Positions 45,273-61,000 of a DNA stretch of 64,000 bases are shown piece after piece. The notes beneath the pieces were generated by a model. That model did not search any database, was not told the DNA's origin, and saw nothing but the letters and a program-made list of their open reading frames with translations. The DNA is from Chloroflexota bacterium (GTDB lineage Bacteria; Chloroflexota; Anaerolineae; Anaerolineales; Villigracilaceae). Where the stretch lies: contig VGNE01000003.1 of assembly GCA_016866215.1 (NCBI GenBank), forward strand, positions 1 through 64,000. Direction: 5' to 3'. The position numbers and the translations under genes are program-made. Position 1 is the stretch's first letter, and every line of letters begins with the position of its first letter.

Positions 45273-48182
45273 GTGCACAGACTGATTTTTGAGATCGGTA
45301 AAGTGAAACTTGTGATTGACATTGCTAAAAACCGTAGAAAGCGAGTCCTATCGTGTACGGCTATCACTTTGTTTTTTGTCATTGCCAGCGGCTGTAGCAC
45401 AAGTGGACCATCTGATTTGGCTCCTATTGTCGAAACGTCTACATCAGAGGGGATTTCTCCATCGCTTATCATCCAAACACCTGTTTCCGGTAATTTTGGC
45501 ACGTCTGAGAATCCAATTGTTGTAGGCGCTGATTATGCCAGCACTTTCTACCCGGAGATATTAAGCCAGTGGCAGGAATGGGCAAGGCGATTGGAGGAAG
45601 CCACTGGTCTTAAATTTGCTGTACAACCCCGTTCAGCAACGGAATTGGAATTATTGGAAGCCATGCGCACCGGAGAAATTCACTTGGCTTCTCTTAGTGC
45701 ACTAGCTTATGTTTTTGCGTATGATCGCGGATGGGTAGAGCCAGCGGCAAACTTTGTAGAGAATTGGAATGGACAGGACGCTAGGGGTATTATGTTCATT
45801 GCTCGTGTGGATAGTGACTTTAACCCCGGAAGCCTATCTCAAGTTCTCAAGCAATTGAAAGGCAAACGCCCATGCTACCGAGAACTTTATCCAGAGTTTC
45901 CTGGTTTGGCCCCATTGGATGAGTATATTCTCCCTTCTGGCCTATTGGCGCTACATTCAATCTCAACTAGTAATCCAGCGTTTATTGGAGATAAAAATGG
46001 ATTAGCCAGTGTGGAAGCCGGCGTTTTTTATAAATTCTGTGATTTTGCTGCTGTAGATGCGATTTCTCAAGAACAGTTTAAAAATAATTTACCGAGAGGA
46101 ATTAGCTCTTTTAGCAAGTGGTCACAGGATATGCAGATTCTCTTTACCACGCCCCCTATTAACCCAGTCGGTATGATAGCCACGTCATCTATCTTACCTC
46201 GGTCAATCCAGGCACAAATAAGACAAGCTGTGCTCTCAGTACCGGCTATAGACACCGCAACAACAAGTTTTAAAATCCCTAATATGCCGCTGTATGACGA
46301 ATTTAAACGTATAGTTGATTTTTCTGCTGTGGATATTCAGGAATATCTTGACTTGCCTATTTGGACGCCGGAACCAGCGCTTTTGGCTAACCAACAATGG
46401 ATAGCTGCCCCACAAGATATACTGGTGGCAGATGTTCCCATGCAAGGAGGCCCGCCTTTCCTTCCTTACATGAATGATCAGCCTTTGAATAGATTGGTAC
46501 TTCCAGCAATATACGCTGAATTGGTCCGTATTGATGCCGAAGGCAGCTATTTTCCTTATCTGGTCGAAAACCTCCCTACCCTACAAAATCAATTGGCGCG
46601 TTTCATAGGGGTGGGGGAAGATCGGCAGTTTGAGGTTGAGTTCCGCCTGCGCTCAAATCTGACTTGGCAGGATGGGTATCCACTTACGGCCAATGACCTG
46701 GTTTTCTCTTGGAATCTAGTGATGGATCCCGCATGGCCCGGCTCACATTACGGTCAGGCTGGGTATGCTCCTGAAATCTTCGTGTCTTCTGTTGAGGCGC
46801 TTTCTCCCAACCGTGTTGTCTACCGCTTCATGAGTCAGCGCGAACTAAGGGAAGTTATCCAATCCGGGGGTAGGCTGGGCGATCTATCGCTCTATGCTGG
46901 TTTAGCGCAGCACCTTGGACCAGTGGTTCCGCTTGATTACATGGATGTAGGGCGAAATGTTTTCCCAGAACATCTCTTAAGGAATATAGCAATAAAAGAT
47001 GTTTCTACCAGCGAATTTGCCCGCAGACCAATATTTGCGGGATCTTATAGGTTGATAGAGAGTGGTCAACCGGATAAACAGATTATCTTGGAAACTTTCG
47101 AGAATTTTACCTTGGGCAAACCTCAAATTGCGCGAGTTATATTTGGTGCTTCATACTATTCTGAAGGTGTAGTAAGTTCTTCTTTGCTACCTCCCGATTT
47201 GCTTGCGCAAGCGCTGCAGACTAAGGCCGTACAGGCTCAACTAGGCTCGCCAGGAGTCAGGTTGCGCCAGGGTGAAGATGTAGTTGCTTACGATTCTCTG
47301 TTTGCGAGAGACCTAGCAAATGTAATCTGGACGCCCAGCACAAGCTGGGAAGTTCTGGATTTCAATCTGGATAATTCTCACTTGTCTGATCTGAGAGTCC
47401 GCCAAGCTATTGCCCATGCTATAAACCGCCAGATGGTTATAAACCAAGTACTGGCTGGCCATGCGGGGATAATGAAAAGCTATTTGCCGGCCTGGCATCC
47501 GTTCTACGCGGGAGACCTTATCCTTCCTGGGTATGCTTATGATCCGGGTGAGGCGCGAATTCTTCTCAAAAAGGCTGGATATGATCTCAGTAGTTTCCCT
47601 GCTACACACCCCACTCGCGGGCCTTTGATATTACGCTTGGGTTCTATGGACGTCAATCTATACCCCCGCCCTCCAATTGCAGCTATTATCAAGGAAAATC
47701 TTGCTCAAGTGGGCATTCAGGTTGATGTGCAGTTTTATTTATGGCAAGATTTTGAGGGACAAGATTGCTCAGCAGTACGAAATGGGCGCAACTTTGATTT
47801 GGGCATGGCGGGCTGGGGAGGGGCCTCGGTTCTGTTTCCTGTTGGATGGTTGGAACAAGCAACAGCACTTGAAAACATTCCTACATCAGAAAATGGGTGT
47901 CCGTATGAAAAATCAAACTGGTCAGGTTGGCGCAATTCTCGGGCCGAAGCTATCCGAGTTCAATTGGCCGACGGGAATCTTGCGCTGGAATATCCAGACA
48001 ATTACAAGCAATTATGGGTTGAACATCAACTCCTATGGGCAACTGAACTGCCCAGTCTGCCATTATTCAATATGGAGCGTCCAGTGGTAATCGCGCCGAA
48101 TTTGGTGGGTGTGTTGCCTAGCCCTCTCGCTTTTGTAGGTGTAGAGGAGACATGGAATATTTTTGAGTGGGAACTGAAATGA
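45273..48182 (+). CDS. Lipoprotein with two fused solute-binding domains
   Basis: A 969-aa exported protein. The lipobox-type sequence VIASGCSTS is at about residues 36-44, after a basic N-terminus. Residues ~60-360 resemble a PhnD-like (phosphonate/phosphite-type) binding protein (PIVVGADYASTFYPEIL, LEAMRTGEIHLASL). From ~410 to the end the sequence is a peptide/nickel-type binding protein of the SBP_bac_5 family (RSNLTWQDGYPLTANDLVFSWNLV, VRQAIAHAINRQMV). No permease or ATPase gene is next to it. GTG 45273 is the longest start; GTG 45303 is plausible. The ligand is unknown. It follows the mau-like cassette by 69 bp. Confidence 0.8.
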   Translation: MHRLIFEIGKVKLVIDIAKNRRKRVLSCTAITLFFVIASGCSTSGPSDLAPIVETSTSEGISPSLIIQTPVSGNFGTSENPIVVGADYASTFYPEILSQWQEWARRLEEATGLKFAVQPRSATELELLEAMRTGEIHLASLSALAYVFAYDRGWVEPAANFVENWNGQDARGIMFIARVDSDFNPGSLSQVLKQLKGKRPCYRELYPEFPGLAPLDEYILPSGLLALHSISTSNPAFIGDKNGLASVEAGVFYKFCDFAAVDAISQEQFKNNLPRGISSFSKWSQDMQILFTTPPINPVGMIATSSILPRSIQAQIRQAVLSVPAIDTATTSFKIPNMPLYDEFKRIVDFSAVDIQEYLDLPIWTPEPALLANQQWIAAPQDILVADVPMQGGPPFLPYMNDQPLNRLVLPAIYAELVRIDAEGSYFPYLVENLPTLQNQLARFIGVGEDRQFEVEFRLRSNLTWQDGYPLTANDLVFSWNLVMDPAWPGSHYGQAGYAPEIFVSSVEALSPNRVVYRFMSQRELREVIQSGGRLGDLSLYAGLAQHLGPVVPLDYMDVGRNVFPEHLLRNIAIKDVSTSEFARRPIFAGSYRLIESGQPDKQIILETFENFTLGKPQIARVIFGASYYSEGVVSSSLLPPDLLAQALQTKAVQAQLGSPGVRLRQGEDVVAYDSLFARDLANVIWTPSTSWEVLDFNLDNSHLSDLRVRQAIAHAINRQMVINQVLAGHAGIMKSYLPAWHPFYAGDLILPGYAYDPGEARILLKKAGYDLSSFPATHPTRGPLILRLGSMDVNLYPRPPIAAIIKENLAQVGIQVDVQFYLWQDFEGQDCSAVRNGRNFDLGMAGWGGASVLFPVGWLEQATALENIPTSENGCPYEKSNWSGWRNSRAEAIRVQLADGNLALEYPDNYKQLWVEHQLLWATELPSLPLFNMERPVVIAPNLVGVLPSPLAFVGVEETWNIFEWELK

Positions 48183-48215
48183 GAAGAAATCCTCTGTTTG
48201 TGACAGGTATCTTCT

Positions 48216-50531
48216 TTAAGTGTTCCGCATTTGATTGAGCAGTTGACTATAGTCCTCGGCGTTGGGAGGGTTCATTAATACGATCTGGTTGATGACCTCC
48301 ATGGCTCCCTGCTTGTCCCCTTTTTGCATGAGGGTTTCAACGAGTTTATCAAGCACGGTGATCGCTTCATTTGTAAGGCCTGACCGGTGCAGTTGTGCTG
48401 CGAACGTGCGTTTTAGCAGAGGTTGATCTTCATGTTCTTCGATAAGATCCTGGAGGAAGATAATTGCCAGTTCGTTATTATGCTGGTTCTCCAGATGGTT
48501 GAGGTAGTTCTCAATTTCGCTCAAGGCTTTATCCGGCTGATTCATGCGCAGGTTGAGTTCGACCAATTGTTTACGCGCCCCATCGTCATCAGGATCGAGC
48601 GTACGTATCTGTTCATAGACACGCAAGGCTTGTTTCCAATCCAGGCGTTGCAGGTCAATATCTGCCATGCTTTGCAGGATGCGTATGTTCCATTCGCTGT
48701 TGGAATTGCCTTGTTGTACCATGCGCAGAGCGGAAGTGTAGGTCTTTCGCGCCAGATCCAACTCGGCCAGACGATAGTAGATCTCAGCCAGTTCCACATT
48801 TTCTTGGATGGCGTCATTGGTTTGCCCACGTTCCACCAGTTGATCAATGAGTCTGGTGCGTGAGTTGATGTCCATCGGTGAGAGTTGAATGATGCGGCGC
48901 AATAATTTTGTGGCTTGTAGACCCTCGCCGCGCGCGCTGTAGGATTGCGCAACAACGCTGAATTTTGTGATCGCGTCAGTTGTGCGGCCTTCCTGAACGA
49001 GCAGGTCGCCCATGAGAATGTGCAGGGGCAGGTATGTTGGCGCTTGTTGAACGGCGTCGTAGGCTTCACCCATTGCAGTGCGTAAACTTCCCATGTGCGC
49101 CAGTTGGTTGATGCGGTTCATCGAGTCAAGCACCGAACTTGATTGTGCCTGTAAAATAACATCTGCAAGCGGGGCCAGCATGTTGCCATCCTGTTTTGGC
49201 ATCTGTTCGCGTATTTTGTGAAGTTGCTCACGCCAATTCGGCCGCATGAGCAAACTATTGATGTTTTCGCACACTTTACGCAACTCTGTTTCATCATCCC
49301 TGCTCTGATAGGACTCAATCAGTGGTTCATATTGCTGGCGGATGTCATCTGATTGTTCGGCTGGGACGGTCATTGAATCGGCGAGCTTCAACGCTTCCAG
49401 ATATTCCAATACGGCTTCGCGGAAGTTGGATTTTCTCACGAACAATTGTCCAAGGAGCAGGCGGGTTCCAAGTGCATAATCAATATGTTTGACGGCATTT
49501 TGTAATAAGCGTTGCGCGCTTTCGAGCCGTTCCCCCTTGAAACGTAAAAGACCAAGGTTGAAATATAGGGACGGGTGTTTAAAGCCGGCCTCCAGCGCGC
49601 CTTCCAGTTCTTCCACCGCCTGGGTTTCGCGGCCTTTGCTTTGCGCGTCAATTGCCTGACCGAGATGCCGGATTACTTTGGTCTGCTCGGCATGTTGTAT
49701 GGATATGCCGCCTGTACTTTTCACGAATGCGGAAAGTCCGGGGCGTTCCTGCGATGAGGGGCTTTCATCGGAATATTCGAAGAGTAACTCTGCCAGCCGG
49801 GTCAATGCCTTTTGGCGAGCTTCAGATACCGGGTCCAGACCGGAGGAGGTTCGCGAAGCGTGAGACGGTTGGAGTTGTTTGACCTGTGCCATGCGGATGG
49901 GACCCGTCCCGCCTTTGCCGCGGATTGGTTGGGGAAGCAGTTGTCCGGTTTTAAGTAAAGTTTGCGCTTGTTTTACTTCGGGACTGTCTGGCAAGAGAGA
50001 CCGGGCTTTTTCCACCATCTCCTTTGTCTTTTCGGCGTTACCTGCGTGCTGAAGGATGCTTGCCACAGCAAGATACTCCGTCACCGCTTTTTGTACGTGC
50101 CCAAGTTTTTCATGCACTTGCGCTAGGCGCAAATGTGCAAAGGTATGTTGAGGATTCAAATTTGTAACGCGTACCCAGTTATCGAGCGCTTTTTGAGTGT
50201 CCCGTTGTTGTAAATAGAGATCGCCCGCGCGAAAGGCGGCGTCAATTGCATTTTTTAAGTTGCCGAGTCTTTCAGAAAGTTGCGCTACTTTTTCCATCGG
50301 CAGGGGGTCATCCGGCGAGATCTTGGCCACGCTCAAATATGTCTGTAAAGACTCTTCGAGTCTGCCAAGTTGATAAAGCGCCAACCCAAGGCTGTTGAGC
50401 GCCTTGGGTTGATCGGGAATTTCCTGCAGAGCGCGGCGATAGGCACTGACCGCCTTATCCCATTCCTGGTCCCAGGCGGCGGAGTGGCCTTCGTTCATTG
50501 CTTTTTGAAAGATATCATCTCGTTCGGGCAT
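48216..50531 (-). CDS. Large TPR-repeat protein
   Basis: A 771-aa protein made mostly of tetratricopeptide repeats from residue ~10 to the end (for example WDKAVSAYRRALQEIPDQPKALNSLGLALYQLG). There is no signal peptide, membrane helix or catalytic domain. A ~40-residue Gly/Pro-containing break lies around 200-230. It is probably a scaffold for protein complexes. It is downstream of polA on the same strand with a 134-bp gap. Confidence 0.85.
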   Translation of the reverse strand: MPERDDIFQKAMNEGHSAAWDQEWDKAVSAYRRALQEIPDQPKALNSLGLALYQLGRLEESLQTYLSVAKISPDDPLPMEKVAQLSERLGNLKNAIDAAFRAGDLYLQQRDTQKALDNWVRVTNLNPQHTFAHLRLAQVHEKLGHVQKAVTEYLAVASILQHAGNAEKTKEMVEKARSLLPDSPEVKQAQTLLKTGQLLPQPIRGKGGTGPIRMAQVKQLQPSHASRTSSGLDPVSEARQKALTRLAELLFEYSDESPSSQERPGLSAFVKSTGGISIQHAEQTKVIRHLGQAIDAQSKGRETQAVEELEGALEAGFKHPSLYFNLGLLRFKGERLESAQRLLQNAVKHIDYALGTRLLLGQLFVRKSNFREAVLEYLEALKLADSMTVPAEQSDDIRQQYEPLIESYQSRDDETELRKVCENINSLLMRPNWREQLHKIREQMPKQDGNMLAPLADVILQAQSSSVLDSMNRINQLAHMGSLRTAMGEAYDAVQQAPTYLPLHILMGDLLVQEGRTTDAITKFSVVAQSYSARGEGLQATKLLRRIIQLSPMDINSRTRLIDQLVERGQTNDAIQENVELAEIYYRLAELDLARKTYTSALRMVQQGNSNSEWNIRILQSMADIDLQRLDWKQALRVYEQIRTLDPDDDGARKQLVELNLRMNQPDKALSEIENYLNHLENQHNNELAIIFLQDLIEEHEDQPLLKRTFAAQLHRSGLTNEAITVLDKLVETLMQKGDKQGAMEVINQIVLMNPPNAEDYSQLLNQMRNT

Positions 50532-50608
50532 AATTGATATTCTGCTTTCGCAATTGCGATGATTTTTTATCGGTATTGGAATTATAACCGTGTCTGCGCA
50601 AGAGATCC

Positions 50609-50662
50609 TAAAGGTTTTTCAAGGAATTCAGGGATGAAAATTTGCAAGGAACCTTTAGGGTC
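50609..50662. repeat. Inverted repeat between TPR and polA genes
   Basis: CCTAAAGGTT and AACCTTTAGG arms lie ~34 bases apart between the two minus-strand genes. In the polA transcript it could fold as a hairpin, but no clean T-run follows. It may be a dispersed palindrome. Confidence 0.6.
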
Positions 50663-50665
50663 TGG

Positions 50666-53464
50666 TTATTTTAAAACGGTCATTTCGCCCCAATTCGCAC
50701 CCGCTCTTGCCTCTGTTTCGAGGGGGATGCTCAACGGGTAGGCATTTGCCATGGTTTCCCGCACAACTTGGGCGGTCTTTTGTATTTCACTTTGTGGACA
50801 TTCCAGAACCAGTTCGTCGTGCACTTGCAAAAGCATTTTGCCTTTCAAACCGGCGGCTTTCAAAGCGGATGGGATTTTGAGCATGGCGATCTTCATAATG
50901 TCTGCGGCCGTCCCTTGAATGGGAGCGTTGATGGCTTCACGTTCTTCGCGGTTCTTCATTTGCACATTGATCTTGCCTTGCAAGGCGGGGAAGTAGCGCC
51001 TGCGCCCGAGCAAGGTTTCCACGTAGCCGAACTCCGCGGCTTGTTTTCTCATTCCATCCAGATAATTTTTTACACCGGGGAATTTTCTAAAATAAGCTTT
51101 GACAAAATCCTCCGCTTCAGCCAATGTCAATTCGGTCGAGCGCGTCAGACCGAATGCCGACATGCCGTAGATCAACCCGAAATTGATGGCTTTTGCATGA
51201 CGGCGCATGTCTTTGTTCACCTGATCCAGTTCAATATCGTAGATGGCGGCGGCGGTGGTGGCGTGAATGTCTTCTCCCGTGCGGAAGGCGGACAGCATGG
51301 CTTCATCTTTTGCCATGTGTGCGACGATGCGTAACTCGATCTGTGAGTAATCTACTGATAGCAAGGTGTTGCCATCGTCAGCGATGAATCCGTTGCGCAC
51401 ACGGCGTCCGGTATCTGTGCGGATTGGGATATTCTGCAAATTTGGATTGTTGGAGGAGAGACGTCCGGTTACTGCGCCGATCTGGCTGTAGGAAGTATGC
51501 ACACGTCCAGTGTTTTTATCCACTGCACTGGGCAGTGCATCCACATAAGTGGATTTTAGCTTCGAGAGTTCGCGCTGTTCGAGGATCCAATCCAAAATAG
51601 GATGTTTACCGCGCATGGCCTCCAGCACGTCTGCCGAAGTGGAATAAAAGCCCGTTGCTGTTTTGCGTCCTTTGTCAGGGGGTTCGAGCCGCAGGCGATT
51701 GAAGAGAATATCCGAAAGTTGTTGCGGCGAGTTTATGTTGAAGGACTTGCCCGCCAGGTCAAAAATTTGCTTTTCAATTTCAGCGAGGCGTTTACCCATT
51801 TCCACGGACATTTTTCCGAAAAATTTTGTGTCGATCAACGCGCCTGTCATTTCCATATCTGCCAGCACGGCAGTGAGAGGCATATCAATTTCATTCAGAA
51901 TTTTTGTGCCGTTCACACGTTCCAATTCCTTTTTCAAAATTGGCATCAGGCGCAGGGTGGTCTCGGCATCAGCGGCGGCATAGTTCGCGGCGGTTTCAAT
52001 CGCCACATCCGCCATGCTGATCTGCTTTTTACCCTTGCCGATCAAATCTTCAATGTGAGTCATTTCCTCGCCAAGACGGAACGCCGCTAGATTTTTCAAC
52101 CCGAGATTACGCGAGGCAGGGTCAACAATGAATTCGGCCAGCATCGTATCGAAGGTGAGCGGGGATGTGATAAGACCATAACGCGTGAGCAGGATGTAGT
52201 CATATTTTGCGTTGTGCGCTATTTTGCCGATCTTTGCATTCGTCATGGATGGCGTCAGTGCAGAAATCACCCTGTCAATGGGAAGATTATTTCCCGAAGT
52301 ATGACCGACGGGGATGTAATAACCCTGTCCTTCCTTGATGGCAAGCGAGATGCCGACAAGTTCTGCTTTCATTTCCTCTGTGTCGGTGGCCTCTGTGTCA
52401 AATGAAATTACTTTTAATTTTGATAGTTCCTGGACGAGATCATTTAATTTATCATCTGTATCAATGGTAATAACTTCAATGTTCGATGGTTGCGGAGAAT
52501 AAACAGCCTGCGGTTGGTTGACGAACATGGTCAACTGACCGCTTTTGGTTTTTGCGGATTTGGATGCCGCTTCTGTGGACTCTGTCACGCCGCCGCTGAT
52601 GCCTGGCACTTTGCTTAGAAGCGTGCGGAATTCCATTTCCTTGAAAAAGGCTTCAAGTTTGGATGGGTCGAATGGTTTTATTGCGGCATGTTCAAGGTCC
52701 AACTTAAGATCAAGATTGATCTCAATCCGCGCCAGGTCACGACTCATGTAAGCCGCATCTTTATTCGCCTCGAGTTTTGCCTTCCAGCGATTTTCCACCT
52801 GATCTATGTTTTGATAGATCGCATCCAATGTCCCAAATTTTTCGAGCAAAGCAGTCGCAGTCTTTTCGCCGACACCTTTTACGCCGGGGATGTTATCGGA
52901 TACATCTCCCACCAGGGCTTTGTAATCGACCACCTGGTCTGGACGCACGCCCAATTTATTGATGACATCCTGATCTGTGATGTAAGTCTGGTCATCGCCG
53001 GCAAGATAAACAGCCGTGCGCTCGTTAACCAATTGTAGCAAGTCTCTGTCGCCCGTGATGATCTTGACGCCCAGTCCTTGTTCAGCTGCTATTTTCGCGA
53101 TGGAACCAAGCACGTCATCTGCTTCGAAGCCTTCCATTTCAAGGCGCGGAATATGAAAGGCATCCACCATTTCGCGGATGCGTTCGATTTGCGAACGCAA
53201 TTCATCAGGCATTTTTTCGCGTGTGGCTTTGTATTCGGGGAAGATCTCGTCGCGAAAGGTTTTTCCCACATCAAATGCCACTGCGAGATATTCAGGTTTT
53301 TCCTGTTCGAGCACTCGCACCAGTTCACGTGCAAAACCATAAATGCCCGCGGTGGGTTCGCCTTTGGAAGTCTGCCAGCGCTGACTGCTTCCGCCAGCGG
53401 TCAGGGCAAAGTACATGCGATAGGCAAGGGCATGTCCATCAATTAAATAAAGTGTAGGGGGCAT
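50666..53464 (-). CDS. polA: DNA polymerase I
   Basis: A 932-aa family A polymerase with all three domains. The N-terminal 5'-3' nuclease (about 1-290) has GVKGVGEKTA and FEADDVLGS. The 3'-5' exonuclease (about 335-520) keeps its acidic residues (FDTEATDTEE, HNAKYDY, AAADAETT), so proofreading is probable. The polymerase (about 560-932) has SNNPNLQNIPIR, LLSVDYSQIELR, the O-helix-like DMRRHAKAINFGLIYGMS and QVHDELVLECP. Function: gap repair and Okazaki fragment processing. Confidence 0.97.
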   Translation of the reverse strand: MPPTLYLIDGHALAYRMYFALTAGGSSQRWQTSKGEPTAGIYGFARELVRVLEQEKPEYLAVAFDVGKTFRDEIFPEYKATREKMPDELRSQIERIREMVDAFHIPRLEMEGFEADDVLGSIAKIAAEQGLGVKIITGDRDLLQLVNERTAVYLAGDDQTYITDQDVINKLGVRPDQVVDYKALVGDVSDNIPGVKGVGEKTATALLEKFGTLDAIYQNIDQVENRWKAKLEANKDAAYMSRDLARIEINLDLKLDLEHAAIKPFDPSKLEAFFKEMEFRTLLSKVPGISGGVTESTEAASKSAKTKSGQLTMFVNQPQAVYSPQPSNIEVITIDTDDKLNDLVQELSKLKVISFDTEATDTEEMKAELVGISLAIKEGQGYYIPVGHTSGNNLPIDRVISALTPSMTNAKIGKIAHNAKYDYILLTRYGLITSPLTFDTMLAEFIVDPASRNLGLKNLAAFRLGEEMTHIEDLIGKGKKQISMADVAIETAANYAAADAETTLRLMPILKKELERVNGTKILNEIDMPLTAVLADMEMTGALIDTKFFGKMSVEMGKRLAEIEKQIFDLAGKSFNINSPQQLSDILFNRLRLEPPDKGRKTATGFYSTSADVLEAMRGKHPILDWILEQRELSKLKSTYVDALPSAVDKNTGRVHTSYSQIGAVTGRLSSNNPNLQNIPIRTDTGRRVRNGFIADDGNTLLSVDYSQIELRIVAHMAKDEAMLSAFRTGEDIHATTAAAIYDIELDQVNKDMRRHAKAINFGLIYGMSAFGLTRSTELTLAEAEDFVKAYFRKFPGVKNYLDGMRKQAAEFGYVETLLGRRRYFPALQGKINVQMKNREEREAINAPIQGTAADIMKIAMLKIPSALKAAGLKGKMLLQVHDELVLECPQSEIQKTAQVVRETMANAYPLSIPLETEARAGANWGEMTVLK

Positions 53465-53528
53465 AGAAGGTCCAAAGATTTCGGAAGTCTGATTTTATAC
53501 CTTTTCGGGACTAAACTACCAAACGGGC

Positions 53529-53564
53529 AAAAAAATAAAGCGCAGAGTTGATTATACTCTGCGC
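53529..53564 (-). terminator. Terminator of the REC-Y1 fusion gene
   Basis: Arms GCGCAGAGT (53540-53548) and ACTCTGCGC (53556-53564) are followed on the minus strand by a T-rich run. It ends the gene at 53584-55239. Confidence 0.85.
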
Positions 53565-53583
53565 TCTGAATTTATTATTGACA

Positions 53584-55239
53584 CTAACGCGCCTGGATTG
53601 GGGTTCCATCCTGTCCCTGGCCCTGTCGTTGGCGGGTTTGGAATATGTAATCCCGCACGAGTTGTGGAGGATGGGGATATGTGCCCACCATAATAAGATA
53701 GCCCAGCGCCCAAAAATCACCGGATGGGTTTTCTTTTTTTAGGCGGGTAAACTCATTAAAAATTTTATCTGATGTTTGTTGGCGCATGATGTCCATGAGA
53801 TAAGCTGGGGAGGTGGTTGGTGGCACATCGACCACCCATTGCAGATACTCAGGGCGCACTGCCAAAAATTCCATCCGCCATCCAAAGGCAATACAGATAT
53901 TTGGCAGCCATTTACCAAGATTTTCTGCCAGGTCACCGATAAGGTAATGTGTTGGAAATCTCGGAACGATCAGACATGCGTAACTAAGATGGTACAAACC
54001 CTCTGTTATTGGTTCCAAAATAAGTTGGCGCGCTGCTTCAGTTGTCGGGCTTGCGCGGGTAACATCCAAACCACCAAGTGGAGGCTTGGCAATTGGAGTT
54101 TCAGGTTTTTGCTTTGAATGAGTTGGCGCGGAGACATTCAATGTATTCAAAGATGTTCGGGATTCTGCATTCAAGTCCTGAACAGGAGGTTGATCTGTCA
54201 TAATCAGATTGTTTAATTTGACAACTGGAGGCTCTTCGCCAGTGGAAACTGGAGCATTTGAAGGAGCGTTTGACATGTGAATTTGGTCAGTGTCAATTTT
54301 TTCTTTCTGATTAGGAAGATCCAAGTCATGGGTGGATGCGGGTTCGGGATCAGGAGAAGGGATGTTGATGAGAATGTTTGAAATTGGGGCAATTTTCAGC
54401 GCGTCGCCTTCATCCATAACGCTGGAAATATCAATATCTTGTTGTTGCGCGGGTTCAGGAGGTTTTTGAGATTCGATTTGTTCTCTCCCAAAGTTATTGA
54501 CGAGTTGACTCGCTTGAGCGCGGATGGTGCCGAAGGGAGTTTCTGCATCGAAAACAAATGCAAGCACAGTCTCAGCAGTCAGGCGGGTAGCGTAGAGCAT
54601 GTGCTCAGCTTTTGTACTTTCAAGGCGGATAAATCTGAGCAGGTCTGAACCTTTTTGTCCATCCCAATTGCGTGAGACGGTTTGAGCCACTTCCATTGCA
54701 GCGTTCTGTGAAAGGCCGCCAGCATACGCCCATAAATCATTTTTGAGTGTAATCAAAGCGGCTTGAGCGGATGATTCCAAAGTCAGGCGGGTGAGGTGTT
54801 GTGCGGCTTTGGTAACATCACTGAGCCAAAGCGGGCTGGGCTCTGCGCCAACTTGAGGAGTGGTTACGGGTTCGGGAGGATTAATTGCGGTCATAAAATT
54901 TGACACACTAAATGGCTTGCGGACGAGAATCCATGGGCGCAAATAATAGATGGGAGCAGGAGTTGCTTTGTCATCAAAAAGGATGATGAGTTTTATGCCT
55001 TGGCGGATGGTGCGTAGGGCATAGCCGATTTCATTTACCCAGTCCTCGCCAAGAGCAAAATCAAGCATTACAAAGGAAGCGTCAATCTCTCCTACGCGTA
55101 AAATGGCAGACGACTTATTGTTAACCACATGGATACGGTAAAGGCCCGTCTCTTCTAATGTGCGACGAATCGTATCTCCAAGGCTGGATGAGGGGGTAAC
55201 GACAAGAATATCCGTTGGCATTTTTAAGAAGTTTATCAC
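53584..55239 (-). CDS. REC-Roadblock-Y1-transposase-like fusion protein
   Basis: A 551-aa protein of unusual make-up. Residues 9-120 are a receiver-like domain: D60 (FVMLDFALG) and K108-P109 (VRKPF) are kept, but the acidic pair is replaced by TPSS. Residues 135-250 resemble Roadblock/LC7 (QAALITLKNDLWAYAGGL, VLAFVFDAETPFGTIR). Residues 255-405 are a Pro/Ser/Asp-rich linker, likely disordered. Residues 411-540 resemble an IS200/IS605 TnpA domain (TEGLYHLSYACL, DVPPTTSPAYLMDIM, YIFQTR). The HUH site reads EYLQ, so both histidines are gone, while Y531 (catalytic tyrosine place) remains. It is probably not a transposase. An alternative start is M7 (55221). Confidence 0.75.
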   Translation of the reverse strand: MINFLKMPTDILVVTPSSSLGDTIRRTLEETGLYRIHVVNNKSSAILRVGEIDASFVMLDFALGEDWVNEIGYALRTIRQGIKLIILFDDKATPAPIYYLRPWILVRKPFSVSNFMTAINPPEPVTTPQVGAEPSPLWLSDVTKAAQHLTRLTLESSAQAALITLKNDLWAYAGGLSQNAAMEVAQTVSRNWDGQKGSDLLRFIRLESTKAEHMLYATRLTAETVLAFVFDAETPFGTIRAQASQLVNNFGREQIESQKPPEPAQQQDIDISSVMDEGDALKIAPISNILINIPSPDPEPASTHDLDLPNQKEKIDTDQIHMSNAPSNAPVSTGEEPPVVKLNNLIMTDQPPVQDLNAESRTSLNTLNVSAPTHSKQKPETPIAKPPLGGLDVTRASPTTEAARQLILEPITEGLYHLSYACLIVPRFPTHYLIGDLAENLGKWLPNICIAFGWRMEFLAVRPEYLQWVVDVPPTTSPAYLMDIMRQQTSDKIFNEFTRLKKENPSGDFWALGYLIMVGTYPHPPQLVRDYIFQTRQRQGQGQDGTPIQAR

Positions 55240-55524
55240 TTATAACAGGCTGAATCAAGTTGCACAATGGGAAAAAACATGGCGTTCTTATCAAGCCAGA
55301 ATAAGGTCATTTACATGATGGTAATCCTGCCTTTCCTTTGACATCCCATTCCATAGCAGATGAGCTCCAAAGGAAAAAGCGGACTATGTAAGGCAGCAGT
55401 CTTCAGTATATTAAGAGTCTTTAATTAGGTTGTTGAGATGTTCCAGGGCGTATCCACCCTGGCGGACGTTGCCAGGGCAACCCGCCATTCAGTATGACAG
55501 ACACCATTTTTGAAAATCCACCTT
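55240..55524. other. Gene-free stretch with small palindrome
   Basis: 285 bases between two minus-strand genes. It contains a hairpin-like segment (GGCGGACGTTGCCAGGGCAACCCGCC, split by a loop) near 55465-55490 and otherwise no coding or RNA gene that I can see. Confidence 0.4.
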
Positions 55525-56085
55525 TCACAGGGTGTCATAATCCGATTGCAATTCTTTAATGCCTAACAATGCCATTAACACTTCTGGCGAGATTTCTGCA
55601 TCAGGCAGGTCTGTTTTGTAAAGTTGTTCATTTTCAGCACGTTCACGCAAAGAGCGCCATAGCATCTGGCGTTCGTCGCCGGCTACAACAAGGTCATTAA
55701 TCGTTTTTGCATGTAGTAAATACTCACCGGTGGAATATAAAAAGGTCAACCGCTTCCATTTGTCTGCATTGATGGGTTCCTTTAATTTCTCTAAACTGCC
55801 AATTTGGATTTTGTAATATTCTTCCTTGGCGCGTGAATGATCTGCTTCATCCCGCAGTAGCTCGCCGCGAGTAGTCAGTTCATGCCCGTGGACTGGCGCA
55901 ACGAATTCAATTTTCCCGCCGCGCTCGCCAAATGCCGAAGGCTGGTAAAAAGCCAGATAGTCCACGGCCACAACTTTGGGCGCGGTGCGAAGCGGGATGC
56001 GATACCATCCTAGTAGGCGTGCGATTTCCATGTCGCGAGGAGTAGGAAGCAGGCAGACGAGGATTAAATCGGTTGGTTTGAGCAT
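55525..56085 (-). CDS. Unrecognised soluble protein
   Basis: A 186-aa protein. The N-terminal part (DLILVCLLPTPRDMEIARLLGWYRIPLRTAPKVVAVDYLAFYQPSAFG, written here in pieces of the same segment) looks like alternating strands and helices, followed by a charged middle (DEADHSRAKEEYYKI) and helical C-terminus. No catalytic motif or membrane segment is seen. It is transcribed toward the REC-Y1 fusion gene, with a 285-bp gap. I do not recognise it. Confidence 0.65.
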   Translation of the reverse strand: MLKPTDLILVCLLPTPRDMEIARLLGWYRIPLRTAPKVVAVDYLAFYQPSAFGERGGKIEFVAPVHGHELTTRGELLRDEADHSRAKEEYYKIQIGSLEKLKEPINADKWKRLTFLYSTGEYLLHAKTINDLVVAGDERQMLWRSLRERAENEQLYKTDLPDAEISPEVLMALLGIKELQSDYDTL

Positions 56086-56099
56086 GAGCTAATTATAAA

Positions 56100-56132
56100 A
56101 CATGACAGTCACCTTAAAGGTGACTGTCATGT
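56100..56132. repeat. Dispersed palindrome, copy B
   Basis: Perfect 16-bp arms (ACATGACAGTCACCTT and complement) around a single A. It is the same family as 2485-2517 and lies between two minus-strand genes. Confidence 0.85.
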
Positions 56133-56135
56133 GAT

Positions 56136-57602
56136 TTAAGAAATCCCAACTTCCTTGTTGAATTCCATGATTAGTTCATCAATTTCATCGGCTTGTTTTT
56201 GTACGTCGGTCCAGTAGTGTGGCTGGTACCATTGCTGCTCGATCTCTTCGTAGGTTTTGCCTTGCTGTTCGACCCAGGTATAGTATTTCAGGTTATGCAC
56301 ACGGCGGCGTTCGGGATAAGTCAACTCGAGCATGTTGTCTGTGGACTGGCCGTGCAGGTAGCGGGCGAAATCTGCGGCGGCGTCGCGCTCGCTGTATTCG
56401 CCGAATTCCTGATGCATTTCGTGCAGGCGTGAGCGATAGAGTTCCATCGAGTCGGTGAGGACGGTGATCATCACATCGTTTTCGTCCATCTCATAATACT
56501 TGGCGACCTTGATGCAGGAGAGCACATTCGAGATGCCAGAGAAGCCGAGCAGAGCGAGGTTGGAGATTAGAGATTCGGGGACGCCTTTCCCTGCGAGGTA
56601 GGCGCGTCCGTTTTCTTCGTTGAACAAACGCGCAATGTTGACCACTGCGGTATCGTCAATTGCGGTGACAAAGTCCGTGTTCTTTGTGTTGTGCACCCAC
56701 GGCACGTGCTTGTCACCGATGCCTTCGATGCGATGCGAGCCGAATCCATTTTCCAAAAGCGTCGGGCATTGCAATGCTTCGCTTGCCACGATCTTGCTTT
56801 CGGGGAAGATCTGCTTGAGATAATCGCCGCTGGCAATTGTGCCTGCTGAACCCGTCGCAGATGCCATGCCGCGGAAGCGATCGTTCTTGCCCATTATCTG
56901 CTTGAGCGCTTCTTCCATGGCGTGACCTGTCACTTCGTAATGCCAGAGGTAATTGCCAAACTCGTCGAACTGATTAAAGATCATCAGATCCTGACCAGAA
57001 TTTCTTAATTCCCAGCACTTGTCGAAAATTTCCTTCACGTTGGATTCTGAGCCGGGGGTCTTGATCGTTTCGCCAGCCACTTTTTCCAGCCATTCGAATC
57101 TTTCCTTCGACATGCCTTCGGGCAAAATGGCAATGGACTCACATCCAAGCAAAGCGGAATCATACGCGCCGCCGCGACAGTAATTGCCTGTGGACGGCCA
57201 GACTGCTTTTTGAGTCGTCGGGTCAAACTGACCTGTGACCAGTCTCGGCACGAGACAGCTAAATGCGGCGCCGACTTTATGTGCGCCCGTCGGGAACCAT
57301 TTGCCAACGATGACAATGATGCGCGCGCGGACTCCTGTCAGCGAAGACAGAAGCTCAAGGTAGTTGACTCCGCCAAAGGTCCCGCCTGAAGCGGATGGTT
57401 GATTGTGCCAGTTGATGCGGAACAGATTGCGCGGGTGAATGTCCCAGAGTCCGATACTCTTCAATTCCTCTTTAACTTTCGCAGGAATTTTAGAAGGGTC
57501 TTTCATTTGGGCATAGGTGGGGATGATGATGTTACGTTCTTTTGCGCGTTGAATGGCGCGGGTGCGGCGGTCTTTGTGAATGGTAAGGTCAATGGTGGTC
57601 AT
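56136..57602 (-). CDS. Fold-type II PLP-dependent enzyme
   Basis: A 488-aa pyridoxal-phosphate enzyme of the cysteine synthase/threonine synthase superfamily. The lysine that binds PLP is in FPTGAHKVGAAF, and the glycine-rich phosphate loop is ATGSAGTIASGDY. The substrate is unknown; at this length it is larger than O-acetylserine sulfhydrylase (about 310 aa). ATG 57602 follows AGGAG. A TATAAT-type -10 box and a 15-bp palindrome lie upstream. Confidence 0.85.
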   Translation of the reverse strand: MTTIDLTIHKDRRTRAIQRAKERNIIIPTYAQMKDPSKIPAKVKEELKSIGLWDIHPRNLFRINWHNQPSASGGTFGGVNYLELLSSLTGVRARIIVIVGKWFPTGAHKVGAAFSCLVPRLVTGQFDPTTQKAVWPSTGNYCRGGAYDSALLGCESIAILPEGMSKERFEWLEKVAGETIKTPGSESNVKEIFDKCWELRNSGQDLMIFNQFDEFGNYLWHYEVTGHAMEEALKQIMGKNDRFRGMASATGSAGTIASGDYLKQIFPESKIVASEALQCPTLLENGFGSHRIEGIGDKHVPWVHNTKNTDFVTAIDDTAVVNIARLFNEENGRAYLAGKGVPESLISNLALLGFSGISNVLSCIKVAKYYEMDENDVMITVLTDSMELYRSRLHEMHQEFGEYSERDAAADFARYLHGQSTDNMLELTYPERRRVHNLKYYTWVEQQGKTYEEIEQQWYQPHYWTDVQKQADEIDELIMEFNKEVGIS

Positions 57603-58024
57603 GGGATTCTCCTGATTTTAGTTGTCAGACAACTTTATTATAGCGCACATCAGTATAAACGGAATAATGTTTATGGTGAGCCCGTCTGGTGAAATGTTGG
57701 TGACGAAACTTTTGAATAATTTAATTTTCTGCGCAAATTCCAATGACTCAAGAAAGATGAAGCCTGTTTCTTCCTGAGCCTGAATTTGTTCTTCTAGTGC
57801 GGCTCTTTCCTCTCTTTGAATTGACCCTGTAAAACACGACTCATTTGGCGCCATCAATTTTTTATGATTAGTAATTTATGCATTCGCGGGTCTTTTACTA
57901 ATAAAAAGTTACTTTTGTAATCGTATAAAAATTACACATCGAAGTTGACATTCAAGGGAGAAAAACTGTAAAATGTAATTGACAATAAACGAACGCTCGT
58001 TCATTTATTGTAAGGAGCATTATC
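57603..58024. promoter_or_regulatory. Divergent promoter region
   Basis: 422 bases between the PLP enzyme gene (leftward) and the activase-like gene (rightward). On the left, a minus-strand TATAAT (57637-57642) is followed by a perfect palindrome AGTTGTC-A-GACAACT (57620-57634). On the right, TTGACA (57945-57950) and TAAAAT (57969-57974) are followed by a 30-base palindromic operator. No convincing gene is visible between; a 79-residue minus-strand frame (57618-57857) overlaps the promoter. Confidence 0.7.
57982..58011. promoter_or_regulatory. Operator O1 upstream of the activase-like gene
   Basis: A 30-base inverted repeat with GAACG-CT-CGTTC centre and arms extending to ACAATAAA/TTTATTGT, with a single mismatched pair. 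It lies just after the -10 box (57969-57974), at the predicted transcription start, a typical repressor position. A similar site lies before the TetR gene (62360-62379). Confidence 0.8.
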
Positions 58025-61000
58025 ATGTCCAACCTCAGATTGGGAATTGATATTGGTTCCACTACTGCCAAAGCGGTGATTCTGAACGGGGGAAAAGATT
58101 TGCTTTTCTCTTCATATCGCCGGCACAATGCTGAGACGCTGCAAACTGTACAGGCAATGCTTGCCGATGCAAAAGAAAAACTTGGCGATGTGGAAGTGGA
58201 TGTGTTGATAACTGGTTCTGCGGGGATGGGAGTATGCGAAAGGTTCAGTCTGCCCTTTATTCAGGAAGTGATCGCTTCGGCTGAGGTGGTGCGGCAGCTA
58301 TATCCGCAAGTAAAAACATTAATTGATATTGGCGGTGAAGATGCCAAGATGATCTTCTTCAAAGACGAAGGCATGCCCGACATCCGCATGAACGGTTCCT
58401 GCGCGGGCGGGACGGGCGCATTCATTGATGAGATGGCAAGTTTGTTGAATGTGCCCATCGCCGATCTGGATGCGCTTGCCAGCAAACACACGACGATCTA
58501 CCCGATGGCTTCGCGCTGCGGCGTGTTCGCGAAGACGGATCTGCAAAATTTATTGAGCCGTGATATTCCGCGTGAGGATATTTCCGCTTCTGTCTTTCAC
58601 GCAGTTGTACTGCAAACACTGGCGACCCTGGCGCGCGGATATACGTCCAAGCCGTTGATCCTGTTCTGCGGCGGACCGCTGACATTTTTACCCGCGTTGA
58701 AAAAATCTTTTATGGAAGTCCTGCGCCTCACCCCCGACGATGTGCTGGATGTGGACAACGCGCAATTTCTTCCTGCGATTGGTGCGGCTCTCGTTAAATC
58801 ATCCACAAGTGAAGCATTCACACTGACATCTTTAATGGAACAGCTCGATACTGAACAGATACATGCAACCGCCAATCAAAACCGATTGCCCGCATTGTTC
58901 AAAGACCAGGCGGACTATCAGGCATGGGAAGCGGCGCGGATGCGTCACAGAATCGAGCGCGTGGATATTGCGCAACTTAATGGCGATAAATTATTCCTCG
59001 GCGTTGACTCAGGTTCGACCACGACAAAGACCGTGTTGATCGATGGGCAGGGCAGGGTGGCGTTTGAGTATTACGTCAATAACAAAGGGGATGCTATTCA
59101 TGCTGTTCAGCAGGGATTGAGTGAAATCCAGCAACGTTTTGCAGAACATGGCAAGGCTCCGCACATCACGCGCAGCATGGTTACAGGCTATGGCGAGGAC
59201 TTAATCCGCGCGGCGTTTGGTTTGGATGATGGCATGGTGGAAACGCTGGCGCACTTCCGCGCGGCGAAGGCGTTTGACAAAGACGTCAGCTTCATCATGG
59301 ACATCGGCGGGCAGGATATGAAAGCCATTTTTGTAAAAGATGGTTTCATTCAGGATATCAAAATCAACGAAGCCTGTTCTTCGGGCTGCGGCTCATTCAT
59401 CGAATCCTTTGCGCGTAACATGGGGTATACCGCCGCCGATTTTGCGAAGGAAGCCACCAAAGGCGAAGCGCCATGCGATCTCGGCACGCGCTGTACGGTG
59501 TTCATGAATTCAAAGGTCAAGCAGTCGTTGCGTGAGGGCGCTTCTATTAATGATATTTCTGCGGGGCTGGCGTATTCAGTCATCAAGAATGCGCTGCATA
59601 AAGTTTTGAAGGTCACCAACACAGATTTACTTGGTGAACATATTGTTGTGCAGGGCGGCACGTTCCGCAACCCCGCTGTGCAAAAGGCGCTTGAACATCT
59701 TTTGGGGCGCGAGGTCGTTTGCCCTGATATGGCGGAATTGATGGGCGCGTATGGCGCGGCGTTGACTGCGCTCGATTTTTGGAATGGAACGGCTTGCCGT
59801 TCCAATACCCAGCAGCAAGCTACTGGATTCCAAATTGGGGTCGTGGGCAATTACGCGAAGAAAACCATCCATTGTCATGGCTGTGAAAACAAATGTGCCG
59901 TTACGAAGATGACTTTCCCGAATGGAAATATTTTTTATTCGGGCAATCGCTGTGAAAAAATTTATACGAACGGAGGCAGGGCGGAGCGGCGCGGAATCAA
60001 CCTGCCTGCAATCAAATGTGATTTACTCTTCGACAGAAAAACCGCGCCCGACTCAACCCCGAGGCTGGTCATCGGTATTCCCAGGGTTTTGAATCAGTTC
60101 GAGAATTTCCCCTTCTGGAATACTCTGCTGGTGGAAAGCGGAATCAAAGTGCAACTCTCCGCGCCTTCAAGCAATGCGGTCTTCCAAAAAGGGACGGGGC
60201 ATATCATGTCCGATAACCTGTGCTTCCCTGGGAAACTTGTCAGCGGGCATATTATGAACCTGATCGAAATGGGCGTGGATCGAATCTTTTACCCGATGGT
60301 CTTCTATGAAGAGAGCGGCTTTAGCGATGCGGCGAATAGTTTTAACTGTCCCATTGTTTCAGGTTATGCGGATGTGGTGCGGAATGTCATTAACCCAGAG
60401 GGGAAATATAAAATCCAATTGGATATGCCGCCAGTCAACTTTAATGATAAGAAGCTGTTGAGGAAGACCTGCCTCGATTATCTTGCGAGTCTCGGCGTGC
60501 CGCATGGGATTGCTGTTCGGGCGTTTGACAAGGCCCAGGAATCGCAGAAACAGTTCAAAGGTCAGGTTCGAAGCGCGGCGGCGGAGATTTTGGAAAATGC
60601 AAAAGAGGAAGGTCGCCCCGTCATTTTGTTGTTGGGACGCCCGTATCATATCGATCCGCTGATCAATCATAAAGTTCCAGACATCCTGATAAATTTTGGG
60701 CTGGATGTCATTACCGAAGATTCCATCCCGCTCGAGGATGGGCAGACGCTGGAGAATCGACACGTGATGACGCAATGGGAATATCTCAATCGTTATTTTC
60801 ACGCCGCGCGCTGGGCGGGACAAACTGACGGCGTGGAAGTGGTGCAGTTGAATTCTTTTGGCTGTGGACCCGACCCGTTTATTCTGGATGAGGTCAACGC
60901 GATTTTGGGCGAGTATGGAAAAAGCCCGACAGTCATTCGTATTGATGAAATTGAAAGTGTGGGTTCCACGAAGTTAAGATTGCGCTCCATGCTTGAGTCT

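Follow-up and report, generated by a model that had tools for sequence, protein, structure and literature searches.

The TnpA transposases of the IS200/IS605 family, such as those of ISDra2 and IS608 and the Sulfolobus TnpA, share both fold and sequence with the C-terminal Y1 domain of the protein described here, which we call RRY (Receiver-Roadblock-Y1). In contrast to these enzymes, RRY has no HUH motif, has no third ligand in its close relatives and has lost several basic residues; furthermore, its Y1 domain is fused to signalling domains and the protein gives no sign of mobility. Y1 domains that were domesticated outside a classical insertion sequence are already represented by the TnpA_REP/RAYT proteins (PMC6006769), of which the solved structure 4er8 is a weaker structural match to the RRY Y1 domain (Foldseek, E 3.6e-4). 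According to the accessible text of that study, the HuH/Y core is common to all TnpA_REP/RAYT members, and a few proteins longer than expected were discarded (PMC6006769), whereas the HUH motif is intact in 0 of 69 fused RRY relatives. The terms 'response regulator' and 'roadblock' are absent from the main text of PMC6006769.

The signalling half of RRY has described counterparts as well. Response_reg-Robl_LC7 fusions, with a receiver and a Roadblock domain in one chain as in RRY, have been reported (PMC4316618); a transposase domain goes unmentioned in the available portion of that report. The original prediction spoke of a new type of protein: receiver-Roadblock fusions are already known (PMC4316618), and what we did not find in the accessible portions of the literature is the addition of a dead transposase. 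Among the matches listed in our open-literature search, in the portions of text that these offered, no Y1 domain joined with a Roadblock or receiver domain was found. The likely working analogy is that of Myxococcus, where the Roadblock and receiver modules of MglB/MglC and RomR act on a small GTPase; unlike in RRY, these are separate proteins, and the accessible accounts do not mention a Y1 domain. As to evolutionary fate, the RNA-guided transcription factors TldR resemble the RRY Y1 domain, in that, in the accounts accessible to us, a mobile-element enzyme turned regulator after losing catalysis. TldR reportedly derives from nuclease-dead TnpB, unlike the TnpA-derived Y1 domain of RRY.

The conserved RRY locus unites three areas that are usually apart, namely transposases, receiver/Roadblock GTPase signalling and DNA polymerase I, and through RRY small-GTPase regulation of DNA polymerase I in bacteria becomes testable.

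The RRY gene and its three domains

The RRY gene occupies 53584..55221 on the minus strand of the window, by which we mean the whole 64,000-nucleotide stretch of DNA that was analysed. Its listed open reading frame begins at a GTG six codons upstream of an ATG. This ATG, at 55221, is the conserved start: orthologues open with MPAD, and in two of 45 loci (L024, L031) stop codons just before the ATG block any start upstream. Because the ATG and not the GTG is the start, the protein has 545 amino acids and earlier residue numbers are six too high. In this protein a receiver, a Roadblock and a dead Y1 domain are combined in one chain, an observation that we confirmed; the set of aligned orthologues used below has 38 rows (the window and 37 of the 45 loci), and the chance level for the domain calls is covered by their E-values. 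All three domain assignments of the original prediction hold, Y1 and the receiver by profiles and all three by Foldseek, and the Y1 and Roadblock folds were both predicted.

The C-terminal domain (residues 404-536; 53614..54012, minus strand) has an IS200-type Y1 transposase fold from which the catalytic metal site is absent. Pfam Y1_Tnp, the sole Pfam model to match RRY over its cut-off, does so at 1.9e-9, and is found in 38/38 aligned orthologues (E <= 0.1); the NCBIfam IS200 model matches at 3.9e-12, which is under its cut-off. When compared with the PDB, the 38-orthologue profile retrieved six distinct solved IS200-type transposase sequences (E 4.3e-9 to 2.4e-6, best 2ec2), and hhalign of the dead Y1 domain against canonical TnpA gave a probability of 99.4 (E 1.1e-21). 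AlphaFold2 with the 38 close orthologues alone left most of the Y1 part unmodelled (pLDDT about 30-50). A second model, built on an alignment of 36 family rows and 56 canonical TnpAs from viral contigs, reached pLDDT 92 and pTM 0.85; in a Foldseek search with this model IS200/IS605-type transposases fill the top 29 rows, with a TM-score of 0.81/0.84 for 2fyx. The confident model leans on the homology under test, and the sequence evidence is independent of it. Together, Pfam, profile-to-PDB, hhalign and Foldseek comparisons bear out the assignment of the C-terminal ~130 residues to the Y1 TnpA fold.

At the N-terminus (residues 1-115; 54877..55221, minus strand) the profile matched response regulators in the PDB (best 4lzl, E 1.4e-4), and Response_reg was found in 8/38 aligned orthologues (E <= 0.1). 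AlphaFold2 on the 38-row alignment modelled residues 1-115 and about 131-249 well, and Foldseek on this model returned MglB, LAMTOR/Ragulator subunits and receivers, the first two rows being Rag-GTPase complex chains with low TM-scores. Asp54 and Lys102 are present in 46/46 genus rows and, among order-level rows, in 13/14 and 9/14, respectively. Residues 9-10, which we take to be the place of the acidic residues in receivers, read Thr-Pro, and an Asp stands at position 9 in 7/8 receiver-Roadblock-only relatives. Judged by these positions, the RRY receiver is degenerate, as was originally proposed: the acidic pair is replaced, and Asp54 and Lys102 are kept.

The middle domain (residues 130-248; 54478..54834, minus strand) is modelled with good confidence by AlphaFold2 as alpha-beta-beta-alpha-beta-beta-beta-alpha, a Roadblock/LC7 (MglB-like) arrangement. 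For a profile of the Roadblock domain alone (21 diverse members), the top eight solved sequences in the PDB are all MglB (best E 4.6e-4). Pfam Robl_LC7 matches one of the 21 members, and hhalign of the RRY Roadblock domain against two Roadblock proteins of the same genome gave no match. Sequence-level homology of this domain is weak, and the proposed Roadblock/LC7 identity is upheld by the predicted fold, the Foldseek matches to MglB and LAMTOR/Ragulator and the profile-to-PDB match. For MglB it is established that Roadblock domains form dimers and bind Ras-like GTPases. A candidate partner encoded in the genome is a small GTPase of 179 aa that matches the TIGR00231 and Ras models above their cut-offs; its gene adjoins that of a DUF4388 protein.

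Between Roadblock and Y1 lies the anticipated disordered linker (residues 249-403; 54013..54477, minus strand; pLDDT < 50). It carries motifs that are conserved in the orthologues, e.g. ISNIL, DPNQTRVS, RPETP and DVTRES, and are partly altered in the window copy.

Catalytic residues and selection on the Y1 domain

Catalytic residues were scored on an HMM alignment of 69 fused relatives (46 close, 17 order-level and 6 class-level; 15 duplicate rows dropped). The HUH motif is intact in none of them (0/46, 0/17 and 0/6, respectively). At its place the window copy has Tyr459-Leu460-Gln461 (53839..53847, minus strand; EYLQ with the preceding residue), and Tyr-x-Gln is found in 46/46 close relatives; one histidine is left in 7/17 order-level relatives. 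The Gln that acts as third ligand, four residues after the catalytic Tyr, is absent in 63/69 (present in 0/46 close, 4/17 order-level and 2/6 class-level relatives), and its place in the window copy is taken by Thr. The catalytic tyrosine place itself is occupied by Tyr525 (53647..53649, minus strand; 531 in the earlier numbering) and by Tyr in 46/46 close, 3/17 order-level (14 Phe) and 1/6 class-level relatives (4 Phe, 1 Leu). For comparison, 56 viral TnpAs retain HUH in 54/56, Tyr in 56/56 and Gln in 53/56 cases, the other three being gaps. Among the 21 standalone relatives discussed below, one (L118) reads HLH, but without the Gln and with Phe in place of Tyr.

Going by these residues, the Y1 domain of RRY looks catalytically dead. 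The replacement of the HUH histidines, first read from the window copy, extends to all 69 fused relatives, none of which keeps the active HUH motif that the original prediction had named as the contrary outcome. Its claim of a Tyr at the catalytic place fared less well: the residue is there in the window and in all close relatives, but since order-level relatives carry Phe in 14/17 cases and a full metal site in none, Tyr525 is probably a leftover and not catalytic.

Over the eight closest orthologue pairs, which share sequences, dN/dS (Nei-Gojobori) ranged from 0.017 to 0.098 in Y1, from 0 to 0.082 in Roadblock, from 0.061 to 0.222 in the receiver and from 0.089 to 0.437 in the linker. The window's own pair (with L003) is at the top of the range for Y1, receiver and linker. 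The dead Y1 domain is under strong purifying selection and is not decaying. At 53 positions of the domain one residue is present in at least 95% of 36 close relatives and shared by fewer than 20% of the 56 TnpAs (five of the 53 fall in TnpA gaps); these family-specific residues include Trp438, Trp448, Arg449, Tyr459, Gln461, Trp462 and Phe503. With these substitutions the dead Y1 domain reads as a rebuilt surface and no relic. A single-stranded DNA transposase fold has apparently been kept long after the loss of its cutting residues.

The window's genome holds one full-length RRY copy, and RRY, mostly syntenic with polA, is not a mobile multicopy element. We rejected the reading of the gene as an insertion-sequence remnant on account of a match in 36/37 genomes of the genus and purifying selection on Y1. 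A scan of viral contigs with the dead-Y1 profile yielded no relative that was recognised by its two peptide patterns. There is a warning for annotation here: transposase models hit RRY genes, which may then be mislabelled as mobile elements despite their fixed chromosomal place.

The polA neighbourhood and possible roles of RRY

The usual downstream neighbour of RRY is polA, encoding DNA polymerase I (50666..53464, minus strand; NCBIfam equivalog and Pfam over cut-off). With starts taken from the longest ORF, polA is found downstream in the same orientation, either overlapping or no more than 400 bp away, in 60 of 77 loci (40/45 of the genus set, 14/20 order-level and 6/12 other loci). These loci were chosen by match, without random sampling; L091 and L092 are contig pieces of a single gene, and eight loci encode receiver and Roadblock only, four of these eight with polA adjacent. 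In the remaining 17/77, some of them at contig ends, polA is not within 400 bp. RRY and polA overlap or nearly touch in several order-level loci, and a receiver-Roadblock gene without Y1 (L143:3681-4448) has a 4-bp overlap with the polA ORF. The next gene downstream of polA encodes a TPR protein (48216..50531, minus strand), and this order, polA and then a TPR gene, recurs in many loci. Upstream of RRY is the gene of a 186-aa protein without a Pfam match (55525..56085, minus strand), homologues of which occur in 29/45 near loci. Further along the window (45273-48182) a 969-aa protein combines phosphonate-binding-type (PF12974) and family-5 solute-binding-type (PF00496) modules in one chain.

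The gap between RRY and polA contains a conserved, terminator-like palindrome (53537..53567, minus strand) of the form AGAGCGCAGAGT-loop-ACTCTGCGCTTT, with TATAAT at the loop and a T tail, which is possibly also a promoter or operator. Its core is present with <= 2 stem mismatches in 37/44 loci besides the window, the stem being conserved and the loop mostly so. The exact pattern occurs in 14/37 genomes (14/23 of the genus and 0/14 others of the order), in one copy in 13 of these 14 and in two copies in one; in G011, one of the 14, the palindrome copy and RRY are on different contigs. As a conserved GGTTATAATT is also present in the gap between polA and the TPR gene (19/29 loci), the TATAAT is probably a promoter element, and the palindrome may combine the functions of terminator, promoter and operator. 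A promoter scan found no consensus promoter, and Rfam gave nothing at gathering threshold over 48000-58100. We rejected the reading of this palindrome as a REP-like repeat, since 13 of the 14 genomes with the exact pattern have it just once. A simple operon of RRY and polA is not evident in the window, where the terminator-like palindrome with its TATAAT intervenes.

We consider it likely that RRY is a GTPase-linked scaffold tied to DNA polymerase I, in which the Y1 domain serves for interaction and no longer for catalysis, and that it arose by capture. In Anaerolineae, a receiver-Roadblock protein with its gene upstream of polA would have captured an IS200/IS605-type Y1 domain, presumably in a single event followed by vertical inheritance, and the domain would then have lost its cleavage chemistry and stayed on as a non-catalytic interaction module. 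The Roadblock domain would dimerise and bind a small Ras-like GTPase, for which the genome offers one candidate; the receiver, with Asp54 and Lys102 kept, and the linker, the Thr-Arg motifs of which could be phosphorylated, would supply the input. The dead Y1 domain would pass this state to a DNA replication or repair partner by protein contact and not by DNA cutting, the likeliest candidates being DNA polymerase I and the TPR protein encoded next to it. Counting against the polA link is the terminator-like palindrome that separates the two genes in the window, and the placement next to polA could be inherited gene order.

If polA is incidental, RRY could instead be an MglB/RomR-type GTPase regulator of polarity or motility, with Y1 as a mere dimer-forming or localising tail, a reading that we regard as rather unlikely. 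The Foldseek match to MglB and the small GTPase in the genome agree with it, as does the joint action of receiver and Roadblock proteins (RomR, MglB) on MglA in Myxococcus, in the accounts accessible to us; however, the adjacency to polA is kept in loci of many families, and Y1 is about as constrained as Roadblock, beyond the need of an inert tail.

Another reading is that the dead Y1 domain has kept TnpA's binding of structured single-stranded DNA or of RNA hairpins, and either brings DNA polymerase I to these or controls polA via the palindrome beside the gene. The accessible text on IS608 and ISDra2 describes TnpA as recognising secondary structures and working on the lagging strand, and IS608 TnpA as thought to touch the sliding clamp (PMC6006769); near RRY there is the hairpin conserved in 37/44 loci, and Mrr-type nuclease genes are found beside standalone relatives. 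Of the positions with a basic residue in at least 98% of TnpAs, the dead Y1 domain retains 421 and 480 but has lost 423, 424, 488 and 497; six new basic positions are conserved (449, 456, 486, 493, 496 and 532). The mean net charge of fused Y1 domains (+2.3 in the genus, +1.0 in the order and -4.5 in the class; +0.1 in standalone ones) is below that of TnpAs (+7.6 for the 56 viral ones; +5.6 and +10.0 for two sets of five from related genomes). Because of the lower net charge and the loss of four nearly invariant basic positions, we demoted a plain DNA-binding role, and the original suggestion of a DNA/RNA-binding module has this evidence against it; charge and basic-residue counts speak against the old binding mode and are compatible with a new one. 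The palindrome, moreover, is absent as an exact pattern from the 14 order-level genomes searched, its T tail is terminator-like, and its TATAAT fits a polA promoter. In sum, we hold hairpin binding to be unlikely.

That RRY is an active transposase, with Y-x-Q standing in for H-x-H in an altered metal site, is suggested by the invariant Tyr525 of close relatives, but is so improbable that we rejected it, given Phe at this place in 14/17 order-level relatives, the third ligand gone in 46/46 close ones, the other lost catalytic residues, purifying selection, and a gene that the window's genome has in full length just once and that mostly stays in one place beside polA.

Distribution, origin and standalone relatives

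An RRY match is found in 55 of 61 genomes, among them the 36/37 of the genus (one, G012, with a fragment only). Wider searches used domain profiles because a full-length profile drew ordinary receivers in 150/150 class genomes. Over the class, the dead-Y1 profile matched 19/150 genomes at 1e-6, 14 with the fused form (one without receiver) and five with TnpA-like singles only; over the phylum, the Roadblock profile matched 13/151 genomes at 1e-8, 12 from the window's family and one from its order. A PADLOC scan of the RRY protein found nothing.

Variant forms occur. A class-level form of 1004 aa (L128:4767-7781) has a long disordered-looking part with repeated TRIFDDE and TRTLDDD-type motifs, which to us recall phosphothreonine/FHA sites; the proteins of L129 and L130 are 994 and 948 aa long. 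Within the same family as the window, L141:4049-5308 (G175) is a Roadblock-Y1 ORF in which a receiver was not found, possibly owing to a frameshift, with polA 340 bp downstream.

We built an unrooted Y1 tree of 69 rows and 132 columns, which takes in 13 of 46 genus rows and has several long branches. In this tree 12 TnpA-like rows, eight with intact HUH, are split by a 100/98 branch from the fused and genus-standalone domains, a topology that agrees with one capture. The 21 genus-standalone domains form one clade (98/90) within a 100/100 group that includes the fused ones. Since the standalone clade is nested with fused domains, the standalone dead-Y1 domains most likely derive from the fused protein; the dead Y1 domain apparently then spread as a separate module. 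In an unrooted receiver-Roadblock tree, forms without Y1 appear in three places, which may reflect losses or repeated gain.

The standalone genes have neighbours of their own. In 9/20 loci a standalone dead-Y1 gene lies directly before an Mrr-type nuclease gene, and in two more there is one gene between. These loci include L127:2446-4363, which is in the window's own genome (G000:C4), as well as L109-L114, L122 and L126. The nuclease is identified by Mrr_cat in L127 and by PADLOC PDC-S02 in both loci tested. A third gene follows the dead-Y1 and nuclease pair, with TPR in the two longer forms tested. This set is possibly a new defence cassette.

A broader idea, which we put forward as speculative and think rather doubtful, is that dead TnpA serves as a general recruiting module in Anaerolineae, the form fused to the GTPase-linked scaffold for DNA polymerase I and the standalone form for Mrr-type nucleases and others, with an altered DNA, RNA or protein target for its rebuilt surface. 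If true, lagging-strand DNA synthesis or repair would receive a signalling input, to which we know of no counterpart.

In L117-L120 the standalone dead-Y1 gene adjoins a gene of ~310 aa (with a DUF1521 match in L118). A chemoreceptor gene (4HB_MCP, HAMP) is nearby in L118, and similar genes are found near L117, L120 and L125.
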